Source: Pirellulales bacterium
Lineage (GTDB): Bacteria > Planctomycetota > Planctomycetia > Pirellulales > PALSA-1355
Direction: 5' to 3'
Length of the DNA stretch: 64,000 nucleotides
Assembly (NCBI GenBank): GCA_022844125.1
Contig: JALHMI010000004.1
Location: 124,001 to 188,000, forward strand
Position numbers and translations under genes: made by a program. The notes under the pieces were generated by a model. That model did no database searches. It saw only the letters and a list, made by a program, of their open reading frames with translations, and was not told the origin of the DNA. Positions 1,213-64,000 of the stretch are shown piece after piece; the first letter of the stretch is position 1; every line of letters begins with the position of its first letter.

Positions 1213-2600
1213 GCCTCTTACGACGTCTCGCCACTGCCGGCTTGCTGTTAGCCGCCGCGCTTGCGATCCCTGGCCCACGGTCGCCCGCCGCTGAAACGCC
1301 GCCCGGCTGGAAGGCCGGCATCGCGCGCACGATCATCACGCCCGAAACCGACGTCTGGCTCGCCGGCTACGGTACGAAGCGATCTTCTGACGGCAAGCTG
1401 CACGAGCTGTGGATGAAGGCCCTCGCGCTCGAAGACGCGCGCGGCCAACGCGCCGTGCTGGTGACCAGCGACTTTCAAGGCGTGCCGCGCAGCATGAGCG
1501 ACCGCGTGTTCACTAAGCTCAAGGACCAACTCGGCCTCGACCGACGCCAGGTGATGTTCACCTTCTCGCACAATCACTGCGGCCCGCGACTGGGCGACGA
1601 CTTGATCGACTACTACCCGGTCGACGAGGCGCAGGAACAACTCGTCCGCGAGTACACCGACCTGATGGTCGAGCGAACCGTGGCAGTCATTGCTGAGTCG
1701 CTCGCGAACCTGGCGCCGGCGGAACTCGCCACAGGTAGCGGGACCGCGACCTTCGCCGTCAACCGACGCAACAACCAGGAAGACGACGTCCCGCGGCTGA
1801 TTGCCGAAGGAAAGCTCGTCGGACCAGTCGACCATCGGGTGCCGGTGATGAAGGTCACGCGGCCGGATGGCGCCACGGCGGCAGTCGTGTTCGGCTATGC
1901 CTGCCATCCGACGACGCTCAGCTTCAATACCTGGAACGGCGACTATCCCGGCTTCGCCCAGCTTGAGATCGAAGCGAAGTATCCCGGCGCGGCGGCGATG
2001 TTCGTGAACACCTGTGGCGGCGACCAGAACCCGCTCCCGCGGCGCAGCGTCGAACTCTGCCAGAAGTACGGCCACGAGCTGGCCGTGGGCGTGCTCTCCG
2101 CGCTCGATGCCCAACTCTCGCCGCTCGAGCCGCGACTTGCGACTGCGTTCACGCTTGTCGATCTGGCGTACCTCGAGGTCACCTCGCGCGAACAGCTCGT
2201 CGCGGCTGCGGCCGACGAAAGCAATGCGATCCAGGCCCGCTGGGCGCGGCGGCTGCTCAAGGAGCTCGATGCCGGCGCCAAGTTCGCTTCCGAGTATCCC
2301 TATCCCGTCCACGTCTGGCGGCTCGGTCGCGATACGTACTGGATCGGCCTGGGCGCAGAATCCGTCGTCGACTACTCGCTCCGCTTTCAGCGCGAGTACG
2401 GCCCGAACACCTGGGTGCTGGGCTACACCGACGACATGCTGGCCTATATCCCCTCGCGCCGCGTGTGGGAAGAAGGGGGCTACGAAGGTGGCGCTCGCCT
2501 CTACGAATACGGCCGCCCCGCCCTCCGCTGGGCCGGCGACGTAGAAGACCGGATCTCAAGCACAGTCCAACGGCTGATGAAAGAAGTCGACCAGCCGTAA
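1209..2600 (+). CDS. Secreted neutral/alkaline ceramidase-like hydrolase
   Basis: The protein has 463 residues. It begins with a signal peptide (MSLLRRLATAGLLLAAALA, cleavage near the Ala-rich stretch at about residue 25-30). The rest matches the ceramidase N-terminal alkaline domain: GIARTIITPE and AGYGTKR near the start, the zinc-site segment FSHNHCGPRLGDD, GYACHPTTL, and VNTCGGDQNP. Family enzymes hydrolyse the amide bond of N-acyl sphingosine, but planctomycete paralogues are numerous and their substrates are unproved. The protein lacks the C-terminal Ig-like domain of true ceramidases. It probably acts in the periplasm or outside the cell. It is coupled to the DUF3817 gene by an ATGA overlap. 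Confidence 0.85.
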   Translation: MSLLRRLATAGLLLAAALAIPGPRSPAAETPPGWKAGIARTIITPETDVWLAGYGTKRSSDGKLHELWMKALALEDARGQRAVLVTSDFQGVPRSMSDRVFTKLKDQLGLDRRQVMFTFSHNHCGPRLGDDLIDYYPVDEAQEQLVREYTDLMVERTVAVIAESLANLAPAELATGSGTATFAVNRRNNQEDDVPRLIAEGKLVGPVDHRVPVMKVTRPDGATAAVVFGYACHPTTLSFNTWNGDYPGFAQLEIEAKYPGAAAMFVNTCGGDQNPLPRRSVELCQKYGHELAVGVLSALDAQLSPLEPRLATAFTLVDLAYLEVTSREQLVAAAADESNAIQARWARRLLKELDAGAKFASEYPYPVHVWRLGRDTYWIGLGAESVVDYSLRFQREYGPNTWVLGYTDDMLAYIPSRRVWEEGGYEGGARLYEYGRPALRWAGDVEDRISSTVQRLMKEVDQP

Positions 2601-2655
2601 CGACTACTGGCGGTGGTCGCCAATAGCCCGAACCGCATTGTCCGCAACGGTTCAG

Positions 2656-3420
2656 CTAACTTCTCTTCCACCCCACAAACAGCTCCATCTCCGACCCATC
2701 CTCCGCCAGCTCGCTCGTCCTGACGATCTCCGGCTCAAAGCCCACCGCGCGCAATAGCTCCAGCCACACCGCGCGCGGGTACACGCCCTCCACGTGCCGG
2801 TCGTGCTCCACGCGCACCGTGCCGTCCGCTTCGCGCAGCGTGATCACGTACTCCACCCGGTAACTCTCATCCGCGGGGTCGGGATCCCAGCACCACTCGA
2901 GAAACCGCAGGCCGCGGCCGTCCGCCGCATCGCTGCCGCCGTGCGACGTGCCAGGAGCGAACGTCTCGCCAGTGCTGTCCGGTACAAACAGCGCCGCCCC
3001 GCCGGGTGCACAATGCACGAAGGCCGTCTCGATCGCGCGCCGCAGATCGTCGCGCGTGACCATGTACATCACGGCATCGTGGACGAACACGCAGTCGAAC
3101 TGGCGTAGCTCTCCGCCCGGCTCGGTCAGCCTCGCCGTGCGCATGTCTCCCGGCACGTGCTCGCACTCGGGATTCAGCTTCCGGCTTTCGGCGAGCATCC
3201 CTTCCGCCGGATCGACCAGCGTCAGCGCGAAGTGCTGCTTGAGAAACGACGCGTTGTTGCCGCCGCCGCTTCCCAGCTCGAGCAGCGTCCGCGGCTCGCG
3301 CGCGCACGCGCGGGCGAGTACCTGCCGATAGAACTCCGCTTCCTCAGCATAATCTTCCACCGGCGACAGCAGCGGCCACCACCGCGCCAGTTCAGCATAC
3401 ATCTTGGGAAGATCGGACAT
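2656..3420 (-). CDS. SAM-dependent class I methyltransferase
   Basis: The protein has 254 residues. I placed the start at the ATG giving MSDLPKMYAELA, because the 24-residue upstream extension looks non-coding and lacks hydrophobic or domain character. Motif I, LLELGSGGGNNASFL (about residues 46-60), is the SAM-binding loop. An acidic residue follows in LVDPAEGML, and the region FDCVFVHDAVMYM is the post-I/motif IV area. It resembles methyltransferase domain 25/11 proteins, and the substrate cannot be read from sequence. It is a single gene, convergent with the ceramidase-like gene. Confidence 0.85.
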   Translation of the reverse strand: MSDLPKMYAELARWWPLLSPVEDYAEEAEFYRQVLARACAREPRTLLELGSGGGNNASFLKQHFALTLVDPAEGMLAESRKLNPECEHVPGDMRTARLTEPGGELRQFDCVFVHDAVMYMVTRDDLRRAIETAFVHCAPGGAALFVPDSTGETFAPGTSHGGSDAADGRGLRFLEWCWDPDPADESYRVEYVITLREADGTVRVEHDRHVEGVYPRAVWLELLRAVGFEPEIVRTSELAEDGSEMELFVGWKRS

Positions 3421-3550
3421 CGCCACCTCGCTTGCAGCTTTCCCGTCCAGTCGCCGATGACAAAGCCATGGGGCCTGTGACGATCGCATCAAGGTCGCAA
3501 TAGTCTACCGCAACCGATCGGAAAACGAACTTCATGAATTCCCGTCGGTC

Positions 3551-4222
3551 TCAAATGTCGTGCGCGGGCGTTAGCCGCGCGGCCGGCGGCACCGCCGTCG
3601 GCGCCCGCTCGGTGAGCGGCAGAAACTGCCCGTCCTCGGGGTCGTAGGCAAAGACCTGCCCGGTTTCGATCTTGTAGACCCAGCCGTGCAGCTTGATCTC
3701 CTCTCGAGCGAGCGCCGCGGCCACGGTCGGATGCGTCCGCAGGTTTCGCAACTGCATCAACACGTTCTCCTCGACGGCCGTGGTCAGCAGTGCCGGTCCC
3801 GCGCGATCGGAGTACTTCTCGGCCAGGATTCGCCGCGTTGCCTCGGCGTGCGAGAGCCAGGACCGCAAGGCAGGCAGGCTCTCCGTCTTCTGGGGTTCCA
3901 GCAGCGCTGCCATGGCCCCGCAGTGCGAGTGGCCACAGACGATGATGTCGCGCACCCCCAGCCCCGCCACCGCGAACTCAATCGTCGGCCCCTCGCCGCC
4001 GTTCGACGCCCCATAGGGTGGTACCAGGTTCCCCGCGTTCCGCAGGATGAACAGATCGCCCGGATCGGTCTGTGTGATCAGGTTGGGGTTAATTCGCGAG
4101 TCGGAACAGGTGATGAACAGGGCATCCGGACTTTGGCCATCGGCCAGGCGCTGAAACAGATCCCGCTGGGCCCCGAAAATGTGCGCCTGAAACTCGTGAA
4201 TTCCCTTAATCAACTTCTGCAT
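3551..4222 (-). CDS. Beta-class carbonic anhydrase
   Basis: The protein has 223 residues from [12 protein letters not shown], and the 18-residue upstream extension is not conserved in the family. It catalyses reversible hydration of CO2. The zinc ligands are clear: Cys39 in CSDSR, then His98 and Cys101 in GHSHCGAM. Asp41 and Arg43 form the usual catalytic dyad. The segments [11 protein letters not shown] and EFAVAGLGV are typical. No signal peptide is present, so it is cytoplasmic. The C-terminal extension after [12 protein letters not shown] is proline/alanine rich and probably unstructured. Confidence 0.95.
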
Positions 4223-7539: not shown

Positions 7540-7723
7540 CTGTCGTGGATGAAGTATTCCAGTGTTTGGGATTTTGGGCCGGGCGTCAAGGGCCGACGGG
7601 TAGGATGGAAGAACTGTAGGCAAGATTGATGATGTGACACGCCGATCACAGCGATTGTTGCGCCGCCGCGCCGAGCAGCCGGCCGCAGCGTCGGGGTCGG
7701 CAGCTTTTCCAGACACGGGGGGT

Positions 7724-7752
7724 CTGGCAGGCGGTTTTTGGTCCCTTATACT
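7724..7752 (+). promoter_or_regulatory. Candidate promoter for the Gfo/Idh gene
   Basis: CTGGCA (7724-7729) and TATACT (7747-7752) are spaced 17 bases apart, about 85 bases before the ATG at 7837. A small hairpin (CAGAC...GTCTG) precedes it. Confidence 0.45.
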
Positions 7753-7836
7753 GCGGCTTCGTGCCCGCGCCACAAGGGTTTTCGGCGGGTGATTTCCCGG
7801 GCAGGCATTCTTTCATAGCAGGGTAAGGCAGACCTC

Positions 7837-8943
7837 ATGGCTGGCAACAAGAAAGTTCGCGTGGCGATCATCGGGTTGGGTTTCGGCGCCGAGTTCATTC
7901 CGATCTACCAGAATCATCCCCACGCTGAGTTGTACGCGATCTGCCAGCGGAATCCTGAAAAACTCCAGCAGCTTGGCGATGCGTTCGGCGTCGAGAAGCG
8001 ATACACGAAGCTGGCAGACGTGCTGGCTGATTCGAACGTCGACGCGATCCATATCAATACACCGATTCCCGATCACGCCTCGCAAAGCCTGGCGGGGCTG
8101 AAGGCCGGTAAGCACGTGGCCTGTACGGTGCCGATGGCGACGACGATCGACGAATGCCGCGACCTGGTGGCTGCCCAACGGGCCGGCGGCAAGAAGTACA
8201 TGATGATGGAGACGGTCGTTTACAGTCGCGAGTTTCTGTATGTGAAGCACCTGTTCGAGAGCGGCGAGCTAGGCCGCTTGCAGTTCCTGCGCGGCTCGCA
8301 TCAGCAGGAAATGGCCGGCTGGCCCGGCTACTGGGAAGGCCTGCCTCCAATGCATTACGCCACGCATTGCGTGAGCCCCTGTCTGGCGCTGCCGGGCAAG
8401 CTGGCCAAGAGCGTTGTTTGTCACGGCTCGGGCCGCATCAGCGAGGCGCTCTCCAGCAAATACGGTTCGCCGTTCGCGGTCGAGACGGCCACGTTCGACA
8501 TGCACGACTCGCCGCTCTGCGCTGAAGTAACCCGAAGCCTGTTCGAAACGGCCCGGCAGTACATCGAAAGTTTCGACGTGTATGCCGACAAGGTGACGTT
8601 CGAGTGGCCGCGAATCGAGCACGAGCCGGTCGTCCTGCATCGGGGAGAGACGCCGGAGCGAGTGAAGGTGCCCGACTTCGCCGATCGACTGCCCGAAGGG
8701 ATTCGCCGCTTCACGACCAAGGGCGTGTACGACGCTGACGAGACGCAGCATCTCTCGTTCCTGCAGGGAAGCGGCCACGGCGGTTCGCACCCACACCTGG
8801 CGCACGAGTTCCTGAGTGCGATTGTCGAGGATCGCGAGCCGCTGCCGAACGCGGTCACCAGCGCTAACTGGACGATGACGGGCATCTGCGCCCACATTTC
8901 GGCGATGAGCGGTGGCGAACGGGTCGAGATTCCGGTCTTGTGA
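7837..8943 (+). CDS. Gfo/Idh/MocA family oxidoreductase
   Basis: This is a 368-residue NAD(P)-dependent sugar or cyclitol dehydrogenase of the Gfo/Idh/MocA family. The Rossmann fold starts VAIIGLGFGAEF (residues ~9-20), and INTPIPDHASQSLAGLKAGKHVACTVP matches the conserved EKP region, with CTVP replacing CEKP. The C-terminal alpha/beta domain contains the family's His-rich HYATHC segment. The usual EKP lysine position reads TVP, so activity may differ from that of classical dehydrogenases. There is no signal peptide, whereas many planctomycete homologues are Tat-exported. It is convergent with the kinase gene, with only 3 bases between their stops. Confidence 0.9.
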   Translation: MAGNKKVRVAIIGLGFGAEFIPIYQNHPHAELYAICQRNPEKLQQLGDAFGVEKRYTKLADVLADSNVDAIHINTPIPDHASQSLAGLKAGKHVACTVPMATTIDECRDLVAAQRAGGKKYMMMETVVYSREFLYVKHLFESGELGRLQFLRGSHQQEMAGWPGYWEGLPPMHYATHCVSPCLALPGKLAKSVVCHGSGRISEALSSKYGSPFAVETATFDMHDSPLCAEVTRSLFETARQYIESFDVYADKVTFEWPRIEHEPVVLHRGETPERVKVPDFADRLPEGIRRFTTKGVYDADETQHLSFLQGSGHGGSHPHLAHEFLSAIVEDREPLPNAVTSANWTMTGICAHISAMSGGERVEIPVL

Positions 8944-8946
8944 GGC

Positions 8947-10935
8947 TCAGGTTTGCTGAGCGACTTCGCGGAGCGAAGCAGCTACGAGGCGCCCCGTGTC
9001 GGTATCGATCGGGCTTAGCGCGATGTTCGCCGAAAATTCGCTGCCGTCTTTGCGTCGCCCACGCAACGGTGCGCCTGCGCTCATTGGTCGTACGCTGGCT
9101 GCAGCGAAAAAACCGGTGACGTGCGCGGGATGTTGCGCTCGGAAACGCTCAGGAATGAGCATCTCTACCGACTGTCCAATCAGCTCATCGTTCGTGTACC
9201 CAAACAATCGCTCGGTTTGCTGATTCGTCATTGTGATGCGGCCGGTTGGCTCGATGATGACCATGGCGTCTGGAGCGGAGCGAAGTACGCCCTCGAACAG
9301 TCGCTGCGATCGCTTCAGTTCGGAGATGTCGCGGCCCACGATGTAGACGCATTCCTCCGCGGCGATCGGCGTCGCGTTCCAGGAAATCCAGCGATACGAT
9401 CCATCCTGGTGCAGCGCGCGGGCTTCGAAGGAGGCGGCGGTTTGCGTGGTGGCCAATTTCCTCATTCGGCTGGCAATTGATTCACGGTCATCGACATGGA
9501 TCAGGTCACTCAAAGGCATGCCGAGGATCTTCTCACGATCGAAGCTAAGCAAGCGTTGCCAGGCGGGACTGACCTGGCGCAGGGAACCCTTCGCGTCAAC
9601 AATCGCCAGCAGGTCGAGTGACAAGGCAAAGAATCGCTCGCGTTCCTCTTCAGCCTGACGTCGCTCGGCGAGATCGCTGATCCAGCGCTGAGCGGCCGCA
9701 GCCACGCTGGCCGCCGACTCGTAACGATCTTCCGGCTTCTTAGCCAGTCCTTTGAGACAAACCTGCTCTAGCGCTTCAGGGATGCCCGAGACAATTTGGC
9801 TTGGCGGGCGCGGAAGCTCGAATTGCACCCGTTCAAGCACATCGAGGATGTTGCCGCCCGTGAACGGCGGCTGGCCGCTGAGGATTTCGTAAAGGATCGC
9901 GGACAGACCATAGACGTCGGTAGCGGGACCGATCCGATCTGCTTGCCCGGCAGCCTGCTCCGGCGCCATGTAAGCGGGGGAACCGAGAATCTGACCGGCT
10001 TGCGTGGCGAGCGGGCTAGTGGAAGCGGAGGAATCTATATCGGAACCAGTAGTCGGTAGTTCTTCGCCACCGACTTCTTTGGCAAGACCCCAATCGATGA
10101 CCACGACCTCGCCGTAGTCACCCAGAATGACATTCTCGCACTTGAGGTCGCGGTGAATAATGCCCTTCGAATGCGCGTAGGCCACGGTGTTGCAGACGAT
10201 GCAGAACGCGCTTAATAGGTGGAGCAGCGATTCGATCTCCTGAGAACCATCGGCACGCTTACGGTGATATTCCTCGACAAGTTCGGTGAGCGTGCGCCCC
10301 TGCAGGAACCGCATCGCGTAATAGGGGTGTCCCGCACTCTCGTCGAGACAGATCTCGTAAATCGGCACTACGCCCGGATGATCCAGCTTGCCGGTGATGC
10401 GGGCCTCGCGCAGGAAGCGGAGCCGGGCGACGTCCGAGGCGGAACTCCGGGCCTGTAGTCGCTTAACGGCGACGTCGCGATGCAGATCGGCATCGCGGGC
10501 ACGCCAGATTTCGCCAATTCCGCCGGCGGCGTGCAAGGTATTGAGTTGATATCGCTGGGACGGCCGGCTCGTCAAAGCCGCCTCACTGGCAGCCGCACCT
10601 TCGGCCAGACTCTTTCGCATTTCGGTTGTGAGGAGACCGGCGGATTGATCTGCCATCGTGGCCAGCACGCCACGGACCTGCGAGGGAAGTTGACTCAGAC
10701 TGGCCGAGATGTCATCACCGCGGATAAGGCGGCGCTCGACAAGGTGCTCCAGGTGCGCTCGATCGTCTGCGGTAAGCCAGCCTTTTTCGCAGAGGATGAC
10801 CGGCAGAGCCATCGGCGTCAAAGTCGAACAGACGCTGTAGGCCTCGGCCAATTGATCGGACGTAATCAATCCGGTTTGCAGCGCCAGCACACCGAACATA
10901 AGGCTTGCGTCAGCGGTCAAGGGGTTAGCAGACAT
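8947..10935 (-). CDS. Ser/Thr protein kinase with two C-terminal PAS domains
   Basis: The protein has 662 residues from MSANPLTADASLMFG; the 41 upstream codons look like leader. Residues 1-125 are a planctomycete-type helical N-region (FGVLALQTGLITSDQLAEA). The kinase domain spans ~130-420: glycine loop AAGGIGEIW (136-144), Lys158 in VAVK, HRDLKCEN (261-268), DWG (281-283, in place of DFG, as usual in this phylum) and APE (324-326). Two PAS domains follow (about 433-540 and 545-660), with YRWISWNATPI and GRDISEL marking the first. There is no transmembrane segment and no histidine-kinase or output domain after the PAS pair, so the PAS domains probably tune the kinase. Confidence 0.93.
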   Translation of the reverse strand: MSANPLTADASLMFGVLALQTGLITSDQLAEAYSVCSTLTPMALPVILCEKGWLTADDRAHLEHLVERRLIRGDDISASLSQLPSQVRGVLATMADQSAGLLTTEMRKSLAEGAAASEAALTSRPSQRYQLNTLHAAGGIGEIWRARDADLHRDVAVKRLQARSSASDVARLRFLREARITGKLDHPGVVPIYEICLDESAGHPYYAMRFLQGRTLTELVEEYHRKRADGSQEIESLLHLLSAFCIVCNTVAYAHSKGIIHRDLKCENVILGDYGEVVVIDWGLAKEVGGEELPTTGSDIDSSASTSPLATQAGQILGSPAYMAPEQAAGQADRIGPATDVYGLSAILYEILSGQPPFTGGNILDVLERVQFELPRPPSQIVSGIPEALEQVCLKGLAKKPEDRYESAASVAAAAQRWISDLAERRQAEEERERFFALSLDLLAIVDAKGSLRQVSPAWQRLLSFDREKILGMPLSDLIHVDDRESIASRMRKLATTQTAASFEARALHQDGSYRWISWNATPIAAEECVYIVGRDISELKRSQRLFEGVLRSAPDAMVIIEPTGRITMTNQQTERLFGYTNDELIGQSVEMLIPERFRAQHPAHVTGFFAAASVRPMSAGAPLRGRRKDGSEFSANIALSPIDTDTGRLVAASLREVAQQT

Positions 10936-56014: not shown

Positions 56015-57367
56015 TCATCCTTCGTCCGCCGCGGGCGGCTCACTGCCTTCCGCTGCGGGCGAACTTTCCTCACTTTCAGTCGGCGGCAGATCGTCTGCCG
56101 CGGGGGCGGTTTCGCCGCGGGCCGCACGTTCGGCGGCTTCGGCTGCTTCGGCGGCCGCGGTGGCCGCGTCGATCCGCTCTTGTTCACGCTGGCGTCGGCG
56201 TTCGAGCGCGGCGGCCTGTTCGGCCTCTTGCGCCTTCGCTTCCGCTTGTTCTATGATCTGCGATGCCTGCTCTTCGGACAACTCGCCCATTTCCTGCAGG
56301 GCGTCCGGCTCGATGATCGAAAGGTCGTCGTACGACAGGAATCCCTCGCCCACCAGCCGCTCACTGAGGCTTTCTTCCACGCCCTCGAGCGAGGAAAACC
56401 CGACCACGGCTCGCTCAATCGACTCGTCGAGCTCTTCGCGGGTCATGATCTCGATGTCCCAGCCGCAAAGCTTGCTCGCCAGGCGGACGTTCTGCCCGCG
56501 GCGGCCGATGGCCAGCGAAAGCTGATCCTCGCGGACCAGGACGATTGCTCGACCCAGCATCTGGCAGAGGATGACTTCCTCGACCTCGGCCGGCTGCAAG
56601 GCGTTGGGAATCAGGACTTGCAGGTCGTCGCTCCAGCGGACGATGTCAATTCGCTCGCCGGCCAGTTCGTCGACGATGTTCTTAATGCGGTTGCCGCGGA
56701 CACCAACGCAAGCGCCGACGCAGTCGACTCGCTGGTCGGAACTGCTCACAGCCACCTTGCTGCGGTAGCCGGGCTCGCGTGCCATGGCCCGGATTTCGAT
56801 GACGCCATCGGCGATTTCGGGAATCTCCTGCTCGAACAACCGCTGCACGAGTTGCGGGCGGGTGCGGCTGAGGATGACCTTCACACGGCTGCCGGCCTTG
56901 CGGACTTCGAATACCGTGGCTCGCACGCGTTCGTTGGGATGGTGCGTTTCGCCGGGGATCTGCTCGCTGCGGGGGAGGATCGCCTCGACGTTGGTGAGCG
57001 AGACCGTGGCGGCGCCGCCTTCGTAGCGCTGGACCACGCCGGTGATCATCTGGCCGATCTGCTCGAAGTATTCGTCGTACAGGGCGTCACGCTCGGCTTC
57101 GCGGATCTTTTGGATCATCACCTGCTTGGCGGTTTGCGCGCCGATTCGCCCGACGGTTTCCTCGGGATCGAGAGGCGTGCCGTTGTGGGTGCCGCTGATC
57201 GAGCCGTCTTTGCGGTCGATGTTGACGACAATATCTTCTTCTTCGCCGTATTGTTTTTTGGCGGCAGACACCAGGGCCGCTTCGATCGCGGTAAACACGA
57301 CCTCCTTGTCGACGTTCTTGTCGCGGTGGATCGCGTCGACGATTCGCAGCAGTTCGTTGGCATTCAT
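56015..57367 (-). CDS. nusA: Transcription termination/antitermination factor NusA
   Basis: The protein has 450 residues. The N-terminal domain ([20 protein letters not shown]) is followed by an S1 domain ([21 protein letters not shown]) and two KH domains ([42 protein letters not shown]). A helix-hairpin-helix-like domain and an acidic C-tail ([20 protein letters not shown]) end the protein. rimP, usually the first gene of this operon, is absent; the upstream 219 bases hold no gene. Confidence 0.96.
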
Positions 57368-59240: not shown

Positions 59241-60995
59241 CTATTCATCTTTGCTCTCGGACGGTTTGTCGTCGTCCGAATTCTTGTCAGCCTTCTTGTT
59301 GTCAGCTTCCTGGGAGTTGCCGGCTTTTTGGCCGCGCTCACCTTTGCTGCGACGCTTTTCGCCCGGCTTGTCGCGATCGCCGTCCTGCTTGGCACGGTCG
59401 TGCGCGCGTTCACCGTGGTGTCGCTTCTTGAAGCCAGCCGGGTGCATCCGCGGCGGACGACGCTCACCGTGTTCGCGGTTGATGCCCGGGCCGTCTTCGC
59501 GATGGCGCTCGATGTGACAGGCGAAGTGCGGAGGCCTCGGTCCGCCTAAGCCGTCGCTCATCCGGCGTTCAACTTGCCCGTGACCTTCGCCGTGACCGGG
59601 CCGCGGGCCACGGTGATGCGAGGCGACGTGCCCACGATGCCAGCCATGTTGGGGCCGCACGCTGAACTTCTGGCCCGCCCCGCCCCAGTTGCCATGAGCG
59701 AACCGAGCGTCGTGCTGCCGATGCTGTCCGTGCCCGCGGTGGGCAAAGTGATGCAGACCACGAGGTCCTCGGTGGCGGGGGCCAGCGTGCGAGAACGAGC
59801 GCGGGCCGTGCTGCGCGCCCATCGCCAGGGCCACGCGATTCCAGGCTTGCCGGCGAGCGTCGAAGCCCGGGCCAAAATGGCGGCCGGGACCGAAGTGAGG
59901 CCGCGAGTGCGGCCCGTGTTGGGCGAAGTGCCGACCGTGAAACTGGCCGCCAAACTGCGGCCGCTGGCCGTGGTGAGCGAATCGGGCAGGTGGATGACGG
60001 TGGGGACCGCGCTGGGCAAGGCCATGCTCGGGCCCGCGGCGGTGATGGCCGTCACGGTGTTGAGCATGTTGCGCATGTCGGTGATGCGCGTGCCGGGCCT
60101 GCGGACGGCGACCGTGATGCCGCGCGGCATGTTCGCCGCGCCCACGGTGTCTCGCATGTCTGGCAAGATTTTTCTTCGAATTGCTGGAGCGATTTGCCTT
60201 ATTCTTGTCGCCGTCCTGCTGCTTCTGGCCTTCCGTCTTTTCTGCCTGACCATCGCCGGACTCATCTTCAGGGGATTCGTCGGCAGTCAGAACCGTGGTC
60301 ACTGGCTCGCGGCGGAAGCTGGCATCACCAGCGCCGCGCCGGCCGCGTCCTGGCCCTCGTCCGCCGGGTCCTTCGAGTTGCCCCTCGAACTTCTTGCCTG
60401 TGAGTTCGCCCCAATGGGTCTTCTGCTCGTCGGTCAGCAATCCCTGCAGCTTTTCCTCGGTTGCCTGGCGAACGGCCTGCATCTTGCGGAAGGCCTCGGC
60501 TCGATCGCCATCGGCGCCTTGCATCAGCGAGCGCATTTCTTCGCGGATGGCCGACTGGACCTCTTCGATTGATTTCTTTTGCTCGTCCGTAAGGGCGAGC
60601 TTCTCGGCCACCTCGGGGCTGGCGAGCGCGGCCGGGCCGGCGACCTGGAGCGAGATCTGTTTGAGTCGCGTGCGCTGCTCGTCGTTCAGAATCGTGTCGA
60701 CGGCCTTCTGACCGGCTTCACGGCTTTCGCTGAACCTCTTCATTCGCTCTTCGCGGCTGGCGTCGCGGAGACCCGAGGCGCCTGCACGCTGTTTGGCGGT
60801 GAACTCTTCAACTTGCTTGACTTGTTCTTCGCTGAGTTTGAGATCCTCTTGCACGGATTGTTGGCCGAGCAGCATGGCGCCGCTGGGGCTGCCGCCAAGA
60901 CCGCGAGGGCCGAGTCGCTCGCGCTGCTGAGCCAGCGCGGCGGATGTCATCGCGACGAGCGCGGCGAACAGGAATAGCTTGGGGACGCTCCGCAT
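59241..60995 (-). CDS. Secreted histidine-rich protein with Spy/LTXXQ-like N-terminus
   Basis: The protein has 584 residues. AGGAGAGG five bases before the ATG fixes the start (60995), and a signal peptide follows (SVPKLFLFAALVAMTSAALA). Residues ~45-215 are helical with repeated LSEEQVKQVEEF, ILNDEQRTRLKQISLQ, LALTDEQKKSIEEVQ and LLTDEQKTHW patterns, i.e. LxxEQ repeats like periplasmic Spy/CpxP. Residues ~280-540 are His/Arg/Gly-rich with about 49 His in ~260 residues (HAHHRHAQHAQH). The C-tail is Lys/Glu/Asp-rich. The His block suggests metal (Zn, Ni or Cu) binding or storage in the envelope. Confidence 0.85.
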   Translation of the reverse strand: MRSVPKLFLFAALVAMTSAALAQQRERLGPRGLGGSPSGAMLLGQQSVQEDLKLSEEQVKQVEEFTAKQRAGASGLRDASREERMKRFSESREAGQKAVDTILNDEQRTRLKQISLQVAGPAALASPEVAEKLALTDEQKKSIEEVQSAIREEMRSLMQGADGDRAEAFRKMQAVRQATEEKLQGLLTDEQKTHWGELTGKKFEGQLEGPGGRGPGRGRRGAGDASFRREPVTTVLTADESPEDESGDGQAEKTEGQKQQDGDKNKANRSSNSKKNLARHARHRGRGEHAARHHGRRPQARHAHHRHAQHAQHRDGHHRRGPEHGLAQRGPHRHPPARFAHHGQRPQFGGQFHGRHFAQHGPHSRPHFGPGRHFGPGFDARRQAWNRVALAMGAQHGPRSFSHAGPRHRGPRGLHHFAHRGHGQHRQHDARFAHGNWGGAGQKFSVRPQHGWHRGHVASHHRGPRPGHGEGHGQVERRMSDGLGGPRPPHFACHIERHREDGPGINREHGERRPPRMHPAGFKKRHHGERAHDRAKQDGDRDKPGEKRRSKGERGQKAGNSQEADNKKADKNSDDDKPSESKDE

Positions 60996-61222
60996 GTTTA
61001 CCTCTCCTGGTTGGTTCAACGATCCGATCGCCGCAGAAGCCGCGGGCAGCGCACTGGTCCGGCGGGCCGTGTGCCTCTAAGAGATGAAACCGCTCTGGCG
61101 CGGGCGAGTTCCGCGCGCAGCGTGCAGAAACCGCCTGCGCGGTCCGGCGATTCCGGTCGAGAACAATGCCAGCACACGGCAGCAGCGAAGCTAAGTCGAG
61201 ACCTTAATCTCCGCTTAAGCTT

Positions 61223-62539
61223 CTAGCCGCTGAAGGCGGAGACCAGGATGGCGCTGGCCTGTCCCTGGGGCGTGACGTTCACGTTCAGGAAGCTCGCGCC
61301 AGGGCTGTCTCCGTCGCGGCACACCGCCAGCTTGCACTTGGGATCGGGCGTGTCGTAATTGAGCACGGGGAACAGCCGCTGGTGCTCAAGCGAAAGCACG
61401 CTGGCGATCATTTCGATCAGGCCGCCGCCCGCGCCCAGGTTTCCGAAGTAGCTTTTGGCCGCCGCGATCGGAAGCTTCGCCGCGCCATCGCCGAACACGT
61501 CGTGGATCGCGCGGGATTCTTCCTCATCGCAACTGCGCGTGCTGAGGCCATGCGCGTGCAAGTGGCCGACGTCGGCCGGCTTGCGATCGGCATCGCGGAG
61601 TGAAGCGGCCATCACATTGCGAAGCGCGGTTTCGCGGTGCGCGATGCCGCTCAAGTCGGCCACTGAGCTGGAAGCCGTCCCGAGCACTTCGCCGTAAATC
61701 TTCGCGCCGCGGCGTTTGGCCGATTGTAGTTCCTCGAGCACGACCGCGCCCGCGCCTTCGCCCAGCACCATGCCCTCGCGATTGAGATCGAACGGGCGGC
61801 TGGCCTTGGTCGGCTCAACGCCGTCGGCGGCGACCTCTTCCTGCGTGAGCGAGTGGACCATCTTCATCGGATGGATGCGGCTGCCGGTCGCGCCGGCGAC
61901 CATGATGTCGGCGCTGCCGCGGAGGATCGTGCGAAAGGCTTCGCCCGCGGCCGCGTTGGCAGATGCTTCGCGCAAGGTGAGCGAATTGTTCGGGCCGCGC
62001 AGATCGTTGTAGATCGCTAGGTGGCTGGCCGGCATGTTCGGCAGGTACTTGAGCAGCCACAGCGGCGTGAGCTGCTGCATGCCTTCGCTGGCCCAGCGCG
62101 TGAAGTCGAAGTTTCCTTCTTCGTCGATGCACTTCATGATGCCGGCGGCGAAATCGTCCGGCAGCGTGAGCATGTAGTCGCTGCCAAACAGCACGCCGAT
62201 CCGTTCGGGATCGACACCATCGGCGGCATCAAGCTTGGCGTCAGTCACGGCGCGCTGCGCTGCGGCGACGCCCATTTGCGTTTCGCGACACATCACCTTG
62301 AGTCCCTTGCGGATGGCCTTTTTCCGTTCCGCGTCGAGCGGGCCGAAGTCGTCGATCGAGCCGGTGAATTCGCGAGCCTCGGCGGCGAACTTCGTCGGCA
62401 GATACTGCGTGTTGATGGCCGACAGCGGCGCGACGCCGCTCTTGCCGCTGGTCAGCCCCTCCCAGAGCGAGTCGAGCGTCATGCCCAGAGGGCTGATAAC
62501 GCCCATGCCGGTAATCACTACCCGCCTTGTCGTATTCAT
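61223..62539 (-). CDS. Beta-ketoacyl-ACP synthase II-like protein with altered active site (CLF-like)
   Basis: The protein has 438 residues from MNTTRRVVITGMG; a GTG two codons earlier (62545) has AGGAG nearby. The fold is FabF: VVITGMGVISPLGM, GVLFGSDYMLTL, PFDLNREGMVLGEGAGAVVLEEL and GHLHAHGLSTRSCDEEE. Compared with E. coli FabF, the nucleophilic Cys163 position (TACxS) reads LREAS, with Glu191 in its place. The His340 position reads SYFGNLGAGGG, with Asn367. His330 and Lys362 remain. It cannot perform normal condensation and resembles chain-length factors (KS-beta), which carry Gln. No ACP or partner KS is in the window. Confidence 0.85.
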   Translation of the reverse strand: MNTTRRVVITGMGVISPLGMTLDSLWEGLTSGKSGVAPLSAINTQYLPTKFAAEAREFTGSIDDFGPLDAERKKAIRKGLKVMCRETQMGVAAAQRAVTDAKLDAADGVDPERIGVLFGSDYMLTLPDDFAAGIMKCIDEEGNFDFTRWASEGMQQLTPLWLLKYLPNMPASHLAIYNDLRGPNNSLTLREASANAAAGEAFRTILRGSADIMVAGATGSRIHPMKMVHSLTQEEVAADGVEPTKASRPFDLNREGMVLGEGAGAVVLEELQSAKRRGAKIYGEVLGTASSSVADLSGIAHRETALRNVMAASLRDADRKPADVGHLHAHGLSTRSCDEEESRAIHDVFGDGAAKLPIAAAKSYFGNLGAGGGLIEMIASVLSLEHQRLFPVLNYDTPDPKCKLAVCRDGDSPGASFLNVNVTPQGQASAILVSAFSG

Positions 62540-62806: not shown

Positions 62807-64000
62807 TCAGTATCGGTTCTGGTACAAGCTGGCTTCGCGCTGGGCCGGCAATGCCGAAGGCTGAACGCCAACCTTGCCACGCGACTCGACGAAGATCAGC
62901 ATCTCGGCCCGCGGCGGACCCGACAGCAGCGGCACGCTGAGCGTGCCCGAGGCGTCCGGAATCGGCGCGGGACCGACTCCCAAGCTGATCAACAGGACCT
63001 GGTCGGTCGGCCAGCGGAAACGCTCGTGCAGCCGGATGCTGATGCCCTGGCTGACTTCGACTTTCTGACGCTGCCGGGGCGCGGCCGTGGTCGGCACGTC
63101 GATCATGACTGGCACCATCTTTTCGACCTGGTCGACGTCGCAGCGAATTACCGCATCGACCACCGTGCCGTCGATCGAGAGCAGGGGGTTGAACTCCAGC
63201 TTGAAGCCCTCGTCAAACTGGCCCATCACTGGTTCATAGCCAGGCCAACTGCCGTCGGCCTTCAGGATGACGTCGCGAACATAGTTGCGGGTCTGATTGG
63301 CCGAGACTTGTTTTGACTGGCCGTTGTTGACCATCAGGTGCGGCGTGCCGTGCTCGCGAAAGTCGCTGCGGCGGCGCAGATCGGCCACCATCAGGGCAAA
63401 GTCTTCTTTGGCCATCAGCCAGGCCGACGTGCCCTGACTCTGCGTGGCCACGGGGTGCAGCACCGTGTGATGCTTCGAGCGCCAGTCGGGACTGCCGAGC
63501 GTGACCACCCGCATGCCGAACACGTGCGACTCGGCTTCGGAGTTGACGAAGCGATCGACGATATCCTGCACGACGGCCTGCATTGGCGGCGTGTGATAGA
63601 CGATCACCCGTCGGCTGTCGACGCTGAGAATTCCCAGCGGAGTGCCGTGCCAGGCTTCGTAACCGGTCTCGCGCAGAATCCAATCGAGAATAGCCTGCTC
63701 GGGCTTTACGGTTGAGCTGACGCGGGCGGTGTAGGGAGTGATGTCGTACTCGCGCCATTCCTGGCCGGCGTCGTTGGGGAGCGTGCCGGGGCCGGCGCTG
63801 ACGCGCGCGATCGGCTCGCGAGCGCGAACGGGCATGGCGGGTGTTTGCGGGGCGGCGCCCTGCGGAATGGGGCCTTGGGGAATGGTGCCTTGAGTGAAGG
63901 TTGCCGGCTGACCGGCCGGAAGCTGCGCGGTGGGGAGCGGTTGGATCGGCGGCTGTGAAACGGGCGCGAGCGTGCCGCTGGTGCGGACCACGCCGCCGGG
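62807..64000 (-). CDS. Proline-rich secreted protein, N-terminus outside the window
   Basis: The frame stays open to the window end, so the protein is partial (397 residues visible). An N-terminal Pro/Gln-rich linker (IQPLPTAQLPAGQPATF) precedes a region with ILRETGYEAWHGTPLG and ILSVDSRRVIVYHTPPMQAV, followed by VVQDIVDRFV. This resembles the N-domain/short-domain pattern of secretins (STN/N1). The C-terminal part (DASGTLSVPLLSGPPRAEMLIFV) is like the closing strand of a secretin-type beta region. It is possibly a secretin-family or outer-membrane protein; I cannot be more precise. Confidence 0.65.
   Translation of the reverse strand, partial: PGGVVRTSGTLAPVSQPPIQPLPTAQLPAGQPATFTQGTIPQGPIPQGAAPQTPAMPVRAREPIARVSAGPGTLPNDAGQEWREYDITPYTARVSSTVKPEQAILDWILRETGYEAWHGTPLGILSVDSRRVIVYHTPPMQAVVQDIVDRFVNSEAESHVFGMRVVTLGSPDWRSKHHTVLHPVATQSQGTSAWLMAKEDFALMVADLRRRSDFREHGTPHLMVNNGQSKQVSANQTRNYVRDVILKADGSWPGYEPVMGQFDEGFKLEFNPLLSIDGTVVDAVIRCDVDQVEKMVPVMIDVPTTAAPRQRQKVEVSQGISIRLHERFRWPTDQVLLISLGVGPAPIPDASGTLSVPLLSGPPRAEMLIFVESRGKVGVQPSALPAQREASLYQNRY

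Follow-up and report, generated by a model that had tools for sequence, protein, structure and literature searches.

A FabF-type ketosynthase lacking the nucleophilic cysteine is a candidate chain-length-factor-like subunit in Planctomycetota

What does a protein with the fold of the elongating ketosynthase FabF do when its nucleophilic cysteine has been replaced by glutamate? The question is raised by a gene, here called KS1, in a stretch of 64,000 nucleotides (the window; G000:C4:124001-188000) from contig 4 of the genome of a Pirellulales bacterium (GCA_022844125.1); the features discussed are collected in Table 1. The KS1 protein of the window carries both ketoacyl-synthase domains (PF00109, E 1.5e-39; PF02801, E 6.1e-21), which were its only Pfam matches at E 0.001, with no KAS III family domain. 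Against the NCBIfam fabF model it scored 289.8 bits, below the equivalog cut-off of 493.75, and it shares about 30-34% identity with the nearest solved FabF structures. An AlphaFold2 single-chain model, made with 38 orthologues as input, had a mean pLDDT of 88.7 and a pTM of 0.90, residues 162-166 being the sole run of at least 3 residues with pLDDT below 50. The nearest solved folds to this model were FabF enzymes (Foldseek TM 0.83), and its best PDB match was the FabF 1j3n (Z 57.9, 2.3 A, 395 residues).

Table 1. Features of the KS1 region; positions are those of the window, with position 1 as its first letter.
Feature	Position	Strand	Remarks
KS1, FabF-fold ketosynthase-like, Glu for nucleophilic Cys	61223..62539	-	ATG to stop, 438 aa
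Glu191 codon GAA (FabF Cys163 position)	61967..61969	-	alignment to FabF
His330 codon CAT (FabF His303 position)	61550..61552	-	alignment to FabF
Lys362 codon AAA (FabF Lys335 position)	61454..61456	-	alignment to FabF
Asn367 codon AAC (FabF His340 position)	61439..61441	-	alignment to FabF
KS1 residues 159-167 PLWLLKYLP, FabF positions 131-139	62039..62065	-	fixed motif; placement at subunit interface inferred
KS1 residues 423-426 TPQG, in place of FabF GFGG gating loop (399-402)	61262..61273	-	
Gene 1, 468 aa, between FabF and KS1	62807..64000, extends to G000:C4:188213	-	
LTXXQ-motif protein, downstream of KS1, His-rich C-terminal half	59241..61019	-	
nusA-like gene, downstream of KS1	56015..57367	-	name from sequence recognition

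The initial annotation had read the active site as Glu191 in place of the cysteine and Asn367 in place of the second catalytic histidine, with His330 and Lys362 kept. The alignment bears this out, placing these residues at FabF positions 163, 340, 303 and 335, and no cysteine was found at the nucleophile position of the window protein when it was aligned to FabF and chain-length factor (CLF) positions. Its Cys-His-His triad is absent and Glu191-His330-Asn367 stands instead. KS1 and FabF (KAS II) have the fold in common, but KS1 is without the cysteine, the second histidine, the GFGG loop and Asp265.

The substitution is general in the order. We examined two sets of Pirellulales sequences, one of 39 related genomes and one of named loci from the GTDB collection; for the latter 577 candidates were confirmed and the best 80 of them used (12 of these repeat genes of the orthologue set described below and 68 are new). 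A KS1 orthologue with at least 51% identity was present in 38 of the 39 genomes, the exception being one that is 83% complete (G032) and carries only a paralogue at 43%. All 38 orthologues have Glu191 and Lys362, and conservation of His330 and Asn367 is 90% or higher, with His330 replaced by Tyr in one and Asn367 by His in one and by Ser in one; many residues around the active site are also invariant, and pocket residues are conserved. In the 80 named loci (best of 577 candidates), Glu163 and Asn340 were found in 80/80, Lys335 in 79/80 and His303 in 77/80 (FabF numbering), and TPQG replaces GFGG in 64/80, the rest having near variants. Four contigs titled Nealsonbacteria or Kuenenia stuttgartiensis (L163, L183, L190 and L221) carry a Pirellulales-type KS1 (58-59% identity), and these metagenome titles look mislabelled.

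A second gene of the same type lies elsewhere in the window genome (G000:C3:402718-403962), also with Glu, His, Lys and Asn. Its family is 38-47% identical to the window protein, and 13 of 15 aligned members have Glu and 2 have Asp. In the fetched locus (L072, G000:C3:395000-411000) this ketosynthase (7713-9053) is divergent from a gene at 9384-10508 that Pfam assigns to the fatty acid desaturases, and a gene of the same cluster as this desaturase adjoins the second-family gene in 9 of 15 loci. Further ketosynthase domains of the genome are part of much longer open reading frames, 1711-3769 aa (G000:C9:234454 and 241382; G000:C15:67190 and 68648), which are probably type I polyketide synthases or PUFA-type synthases.

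A role like that of a CLF had been held doubtful in the initial annotation on the ground that no catalytic partner (KS-alpha) is present. A FabF with Cys-His-His lies just past the window end, 0.4 kb beyond it (G000:C4:188396-189646), upstream of KS1 on the same strand at a distance of 1.9 kb, with gene 1 in between; gene 1 had no Pfam-A match at E 0.001. The genes upstream of KS1, past the window end, are gene 1, FabF, acyl carrier protein (ACP), FabG, FabD and L32, so that KS1 stands downstream of rpmF-fabD-fabG-acpP-fabF. On the other side, beyond the LTXXQ-motif protein, follow genes that we take, from recognition of their sequences, to be an ABC ATPase, nusA and infB. The C-terminal half of the LTXXQ protein is long and very rich in His and Arg, and may be a metal-binding tail or reflect a frame problem. 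Among the 49 of the 80 named loci (best of 577 candidates) with at least 5.5 kb upstream, FabF and ACP were each found upstream of KS1 in 24, and the fab linkage was missing in 25. Gene 1 was commoner there than FabF, being present in 38 of the 49. nusA was downstream in 33 of the 58 loci from the same best 80 with at least 3 kb downstream.

A second Cys-His-His ketosynthase of the window genome, here KS2 (G000:C7:189906-191180), lies on contig 7 in an ACP-dehydratase-KS2 cluster with a FabA-like dehydratase, so that KS1 and KS2 are not adjacent. With a threshold of 60% identity, 36 of the 39 relatives have KS2 (one match being partial), among them 35 of the 38 that have a KS1 orthologue. The view is different in other classes of the phylum. 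In a first set of such loci, another ketosynthase was within 0.8 kb of KS1 in 12/12, one neighbour being cut at the contig end and left unread, and in ten further loci (L241-L250) it was so in 10/10, the neighbours all having Cys-His-Lys-His; the two genes frequently abut or overlap, and L251 is likewise paired. Many of these loci were picked since adjacent hits were already visible, and the seven picked otherwise (L134, L136, L247-L251) were paired in 7/7. Five of the 12 first-set loci (L125, L126, L134, L136 and L137) have the order dehydratase-ACP-dehydratase-KS1-KS2, in L136 with one extra gene, the dehydratase being assigned by Pfam in L125 and the ACP recognised from sequence. Elsewhere, a Cys-bearing KS1-like gene is in tandem with a ketosynthase (L131-L133), and in L141 KS2 was the sole ketosynthase found. 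Together with the FabF just outside the window, these KS1-KS2 pairs remove the objection that a partner is absent.

Own-class pairing is less regular. One locus titled Pirellulaceae (L195) has a KS1 orthologue (2496-3974, +) head to head with a KS2 (987-2399, -) about 0.1 kb apart, this KS2 being 70% identical to that of the window genome; it was the only locus of the best 80 of 577 with KS2 in view. Another family of the own class was surveyed in 20 genomes: 9 had a FabF within 1 kb (that of G219 judged from positions only), 1 had a gene of KS2 type (beside the contig 7 copy of G191, one of two copies) and 10 had no ketosynthase in the fetched flanks. A 1007-aa frame in G218, which we considered as a natural KS1-KS2 fusion, seems to be a read-through of a non-coding frame upstream of KS1, KS2 being a separate gene there.

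The Cys-less proteins group together. In a quick tree of 90 rows, all 48 sampled Cys-less planctomycete ketosynthases formed one clade (SH-aLRT 99), and in a careful tree of 60 rows, which left out as long branches two aryl-polyene-type ketosynthases of a Klebsiella aerogenes record (L228) and two other window-genome ketosynthases, together with 26 other rows, the clade was recovered with its 31 rows at 100/99; both trees were midpoint-rooted for drawing. In the careful tree, under that root, KS1 and KS2 grouped to the exclusion of FabF and of KS-alpha and CLF from Streptomyces (100/98). The sister of the KS1 clade is formed by Cys-bearing ketosynthases (L131 and L133), and the next clade is KS2, which contains both the catalytic neighbours of KS1 genes and the own-order KS2. 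It is the free trees, and not the AU tests, that favour a separate origin of KS1 and CLF: they place KS1 with the planctomycete KS2, although holding KS1 with the Streptomyces CLF was not rejected (p 0.468 and p 0.117). The free trees thus lend no support to CLF as a direct relative of KS1.

To compare residues, 257 non-identical sequences were sorted by best match into 167 KS1, 38 of a KS2 set, 50 FabF and 2 others; three of the KS2-set rows (L122-L124) are Cys-bearing KS1-like genes, leaving 35 for KS2 proper. Cys163, His303, Lys335, His340 and Asp265 are kept in 50/50 FabF and 38/38 KS2-set rows, and GFGG in 49/50 and 31/38, the remainder being alignment gaps. In KS1, Cys163 and Asp265 are lost in 167/167, GFGG is found in 1/167 and Asn404 in 9/167 (4 rows are gapped there), and the cysteine position is occupied by Glu in 160 and by Asp in 5, with one Asn and one Gln. 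The residues that FabF and KS2 retain make up the gate and oxyanion hole of elongating ketosynthases, and the GFGG loop supplies an oxyanion-hole amide (PMC7138838).

KS1 also carries a fixed motif. At FabF positions 131-139 KS1 reads P-L-W-L-L-K-Y-L-P, with P131, L132, L138 and P139 in 167/167, W133 in 165, Y137 in 163 and K136 in 155. KS2 mostly has E-x-E-Q-E where KS1 has this motif (of 35 rows, 32 have Glu at position 134, 30 at 136 and 31 at 138; 32 also have it at position 108), and FabF mostly I-P-K-L-M. Since K136 is usual in FabF as well (48/50), the KS1 motif does not distinguish KS2 from FabF as the partner. In ApeO-ApeC the two subunits have a cavity in common, and its end is formed by His138 from one and Glu142 from the other (PMC8358021); His138 is 29 residues before Cys167, in the same segment as the KS1 motif, which we matched by residue offset and not by superposition. 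An acidic wall of KS2 facing a Trp/Lys/Tyr wall of KS1 would be compatible with a heterodimer. The Cys-bearing sister (L131 and L133; genomes G049 and G069), a KS1-like gene whose tandem neighbour is a divergent KS2, has PLWLLKHLP, so that the motif probably predates the loss of the cysteine. This Cys-bearing gene is a possible intermediate before that loss.

Taken with some reserve, the probable reading is that, across Planctomycetota, KS1 serves as the beta subunit, itself without catalytic activity, in a FabF-type ketosynthase built as a heterodimer, and functions as chain-length factors do in type II polyketide synthases. The partner would be a Cys-His-His ketosynthase, by descent KS2 (the contig 7 gene in the window genome) and/or the neighbouring FabF, and would carry out the chemistry. 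The W161/K164/Y165 segment of KS1 would close the far end of a shared acyl cavity and so determine the choice of acyl chains and the extent of their elongation, and KS1, having Glu191 in the nucleophile place, could not be acylated there. The weightiest counterpoint is that the own group keeps Glu, His, Lys and Asn alike, beyond the needs of a dead site, which makes a second, catalytic role of KS1 conceivable. Several further observations speak against this reading: KS1 is not beside KS2 here, FabF is upstream in only about half of the own-order loci surveyed (best 80 of 577), half of the 20-genome family have no ketosynthase in the fetched flanks, and the presumed interface segment would overlap the stretch 162-166 that is modelled at low pLDDT.

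The initial annotation had offered two functions for KS1, partner of an active ketosynthase and malonyl-ACP decarboxylase. The first gained from the gene pairing, the phylogeny, the loss of gating residues and the fixed motif at the putative interface, whereas the second, though possible, is the weaker rival and seems improbable to us. In KSQ-type malonyl-ACP decarboxylases Gln occupies the cysteine position and both histidines are kept, a signature from which KS1 departs with Glu at the cysteine position and a His/Asn pair. According to this alternative, the Glu-His-Asn-Lys site would make acetyl-ACP and prime FabF or KS2, and the joint retention of His303, Lys335 and Asn340 with Glu in the own group (best 80 of 577), as well as the ACP and FabF genes upstream in the 24 of 49 loci, would suit such a role; Cys-His-Asn is the usual triad of priming ketosynthases (PMC12664062). 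However, among 22 paired KS1 of other classes Glu163 is kept in 19 but Lys335 in 14, Asn340 in 8 and His303 in 7, and since these residues are so often lost in paired relatives, the site is not kept for decarboxylation there, which speaks against this activity as the ancestral role. The replaced GFGG loop, as a source of an oxyanion-hole amide (PMC7138838), likewise argues against it. Nor is a priming enzyme missing that would demand a decarboxylase, because PF08545, a marker of KAS III generally and not of FabH alone, matched in 39/39 genomes, strongly in 38 and weakly in G014 (E 6e-6); the absence of KAS III (FabH) as a reason for this activity found no support.

It is quite unlikely, in our view, that KS1 is a homodimeric acyl-ACP-binding protein that regulates the fab operon, tuning fatty acid synthesis by unreactive binding of acyl-ACP. 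Its place downstream of rpmF-fabD-fabG-acpP-fabF, its near-universal presence in the order and its conserved pocket would fit, but the fab linkage is missing in 25 of the 49 loci (best 80 of 577), and its pairing with a catalytic ketosynthase in other classes points rather to a structural partner. It is very unlikely that the fold has been turned to a new catalysis in which Glu acts as general base or nucleophile. The invariance of Glu191, Lys362 and many nearby residues in the 38 orthologues and the prevalence of TPQG would agree with it; His, Lys and Asn are variable in the KS1 of other classes, however, and no substrate is suggested. A miscall or pseudogene was discarded, the frame and the Glu being conserved across the order.

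How close is the proposed beta subunit to known systems? Like the CLF of type II polyketide synthases (L225-L227; actinorhodin CLF, 1tqy_B), KS1 is related to FabF, has the nucleophilic cysteine replaced and, in other classes, is encoded beside a ketosynthase with Cys-His-His. It differs in having Glu where the CLF has Gln (3/3 Streptomyces CLFs) and in His303 and Asn340, where the three have Asp and Arg. As to adjacency, the FabF of the window genome is 1.9 kb off with one gene between, and KS2 is on another contig.

The substitution, and the general kind of system (KS-CLF gene pairs in Planctomycetes), are already in print (PMC2649909, PMC10132072). Rattray et al. 2009 list for Rhodopirellula baltica RB4527 (NP_866153) Glu163, His298, Lys328, Asn333 and Pro392, in FabB numbering (their Table 2, PMC2649909); this protein is most likely a KS1 orthologue, judged by the shared residue signature as tabulated and without alignment. 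They also give Asp163 for R. baltica NP_865682, and concluded that two divergent FabF paralogues in Kuenenia stuttgartiensis do not fit normal elongation (PMC2649909). The available part of that paper assigns RB4527 no function and does not analyse its gene pairing, clade or interface. The paralogues of the anammox ladderane clusters resemble KS1 in being Cys-less ketosynthases with a locus number next to that of a canonical FabF (kuste3606 with kuste3605, kuste2805 with kuste2804, the first pair also with ACP and FabZ; PMC2649909, PMC4790861), but, compared by their published description, they have Val or Phe at the cysteine position and Asn/Glu at the histidine positions. A survey of KS-CLF gene pairs counts Planctomycetes among 14 phyla, and its available text does not name the KS1 family, its residues or its motif (PMC10132072). 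In the openly accessible literature that we searched, we found no function named for the KS1 family and no account of the phylum-wide clade, the KS2 neighbour or the interface motif.

A wider history, which we offer tentatively and consider rather unlikely as a whole, is that the condensing enzyme of fatty acid elongation in Planctomycetes is a heterodimer. The duplication that gave KS1 and KS2 would be separate from that of the actinobacterial CLF, the interface motif would have arisen before the cysteine was lost, and in Pirellulales KS1 would have moved beside the fab operon, where it would now also pair with FabF. Polyketide synthesis is the setting in which chain-length factors are known, and were this history true, primary fatty acid synthesis would use one. 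If KS1 is a CLF-like beta subunit, such a subunit would be near-universal in an order and lie near fatty acid genes in about half of the loci, making planctomycete lipid synthesis mechanistically unlike the E. coli model. The Cys-bearing sister with the same interface motif would record a stepwise passage from a ketosynthase to a non-catalytic partner, and a similar logic may hold for the non-canonical FabF genes of the ladderane clusters.
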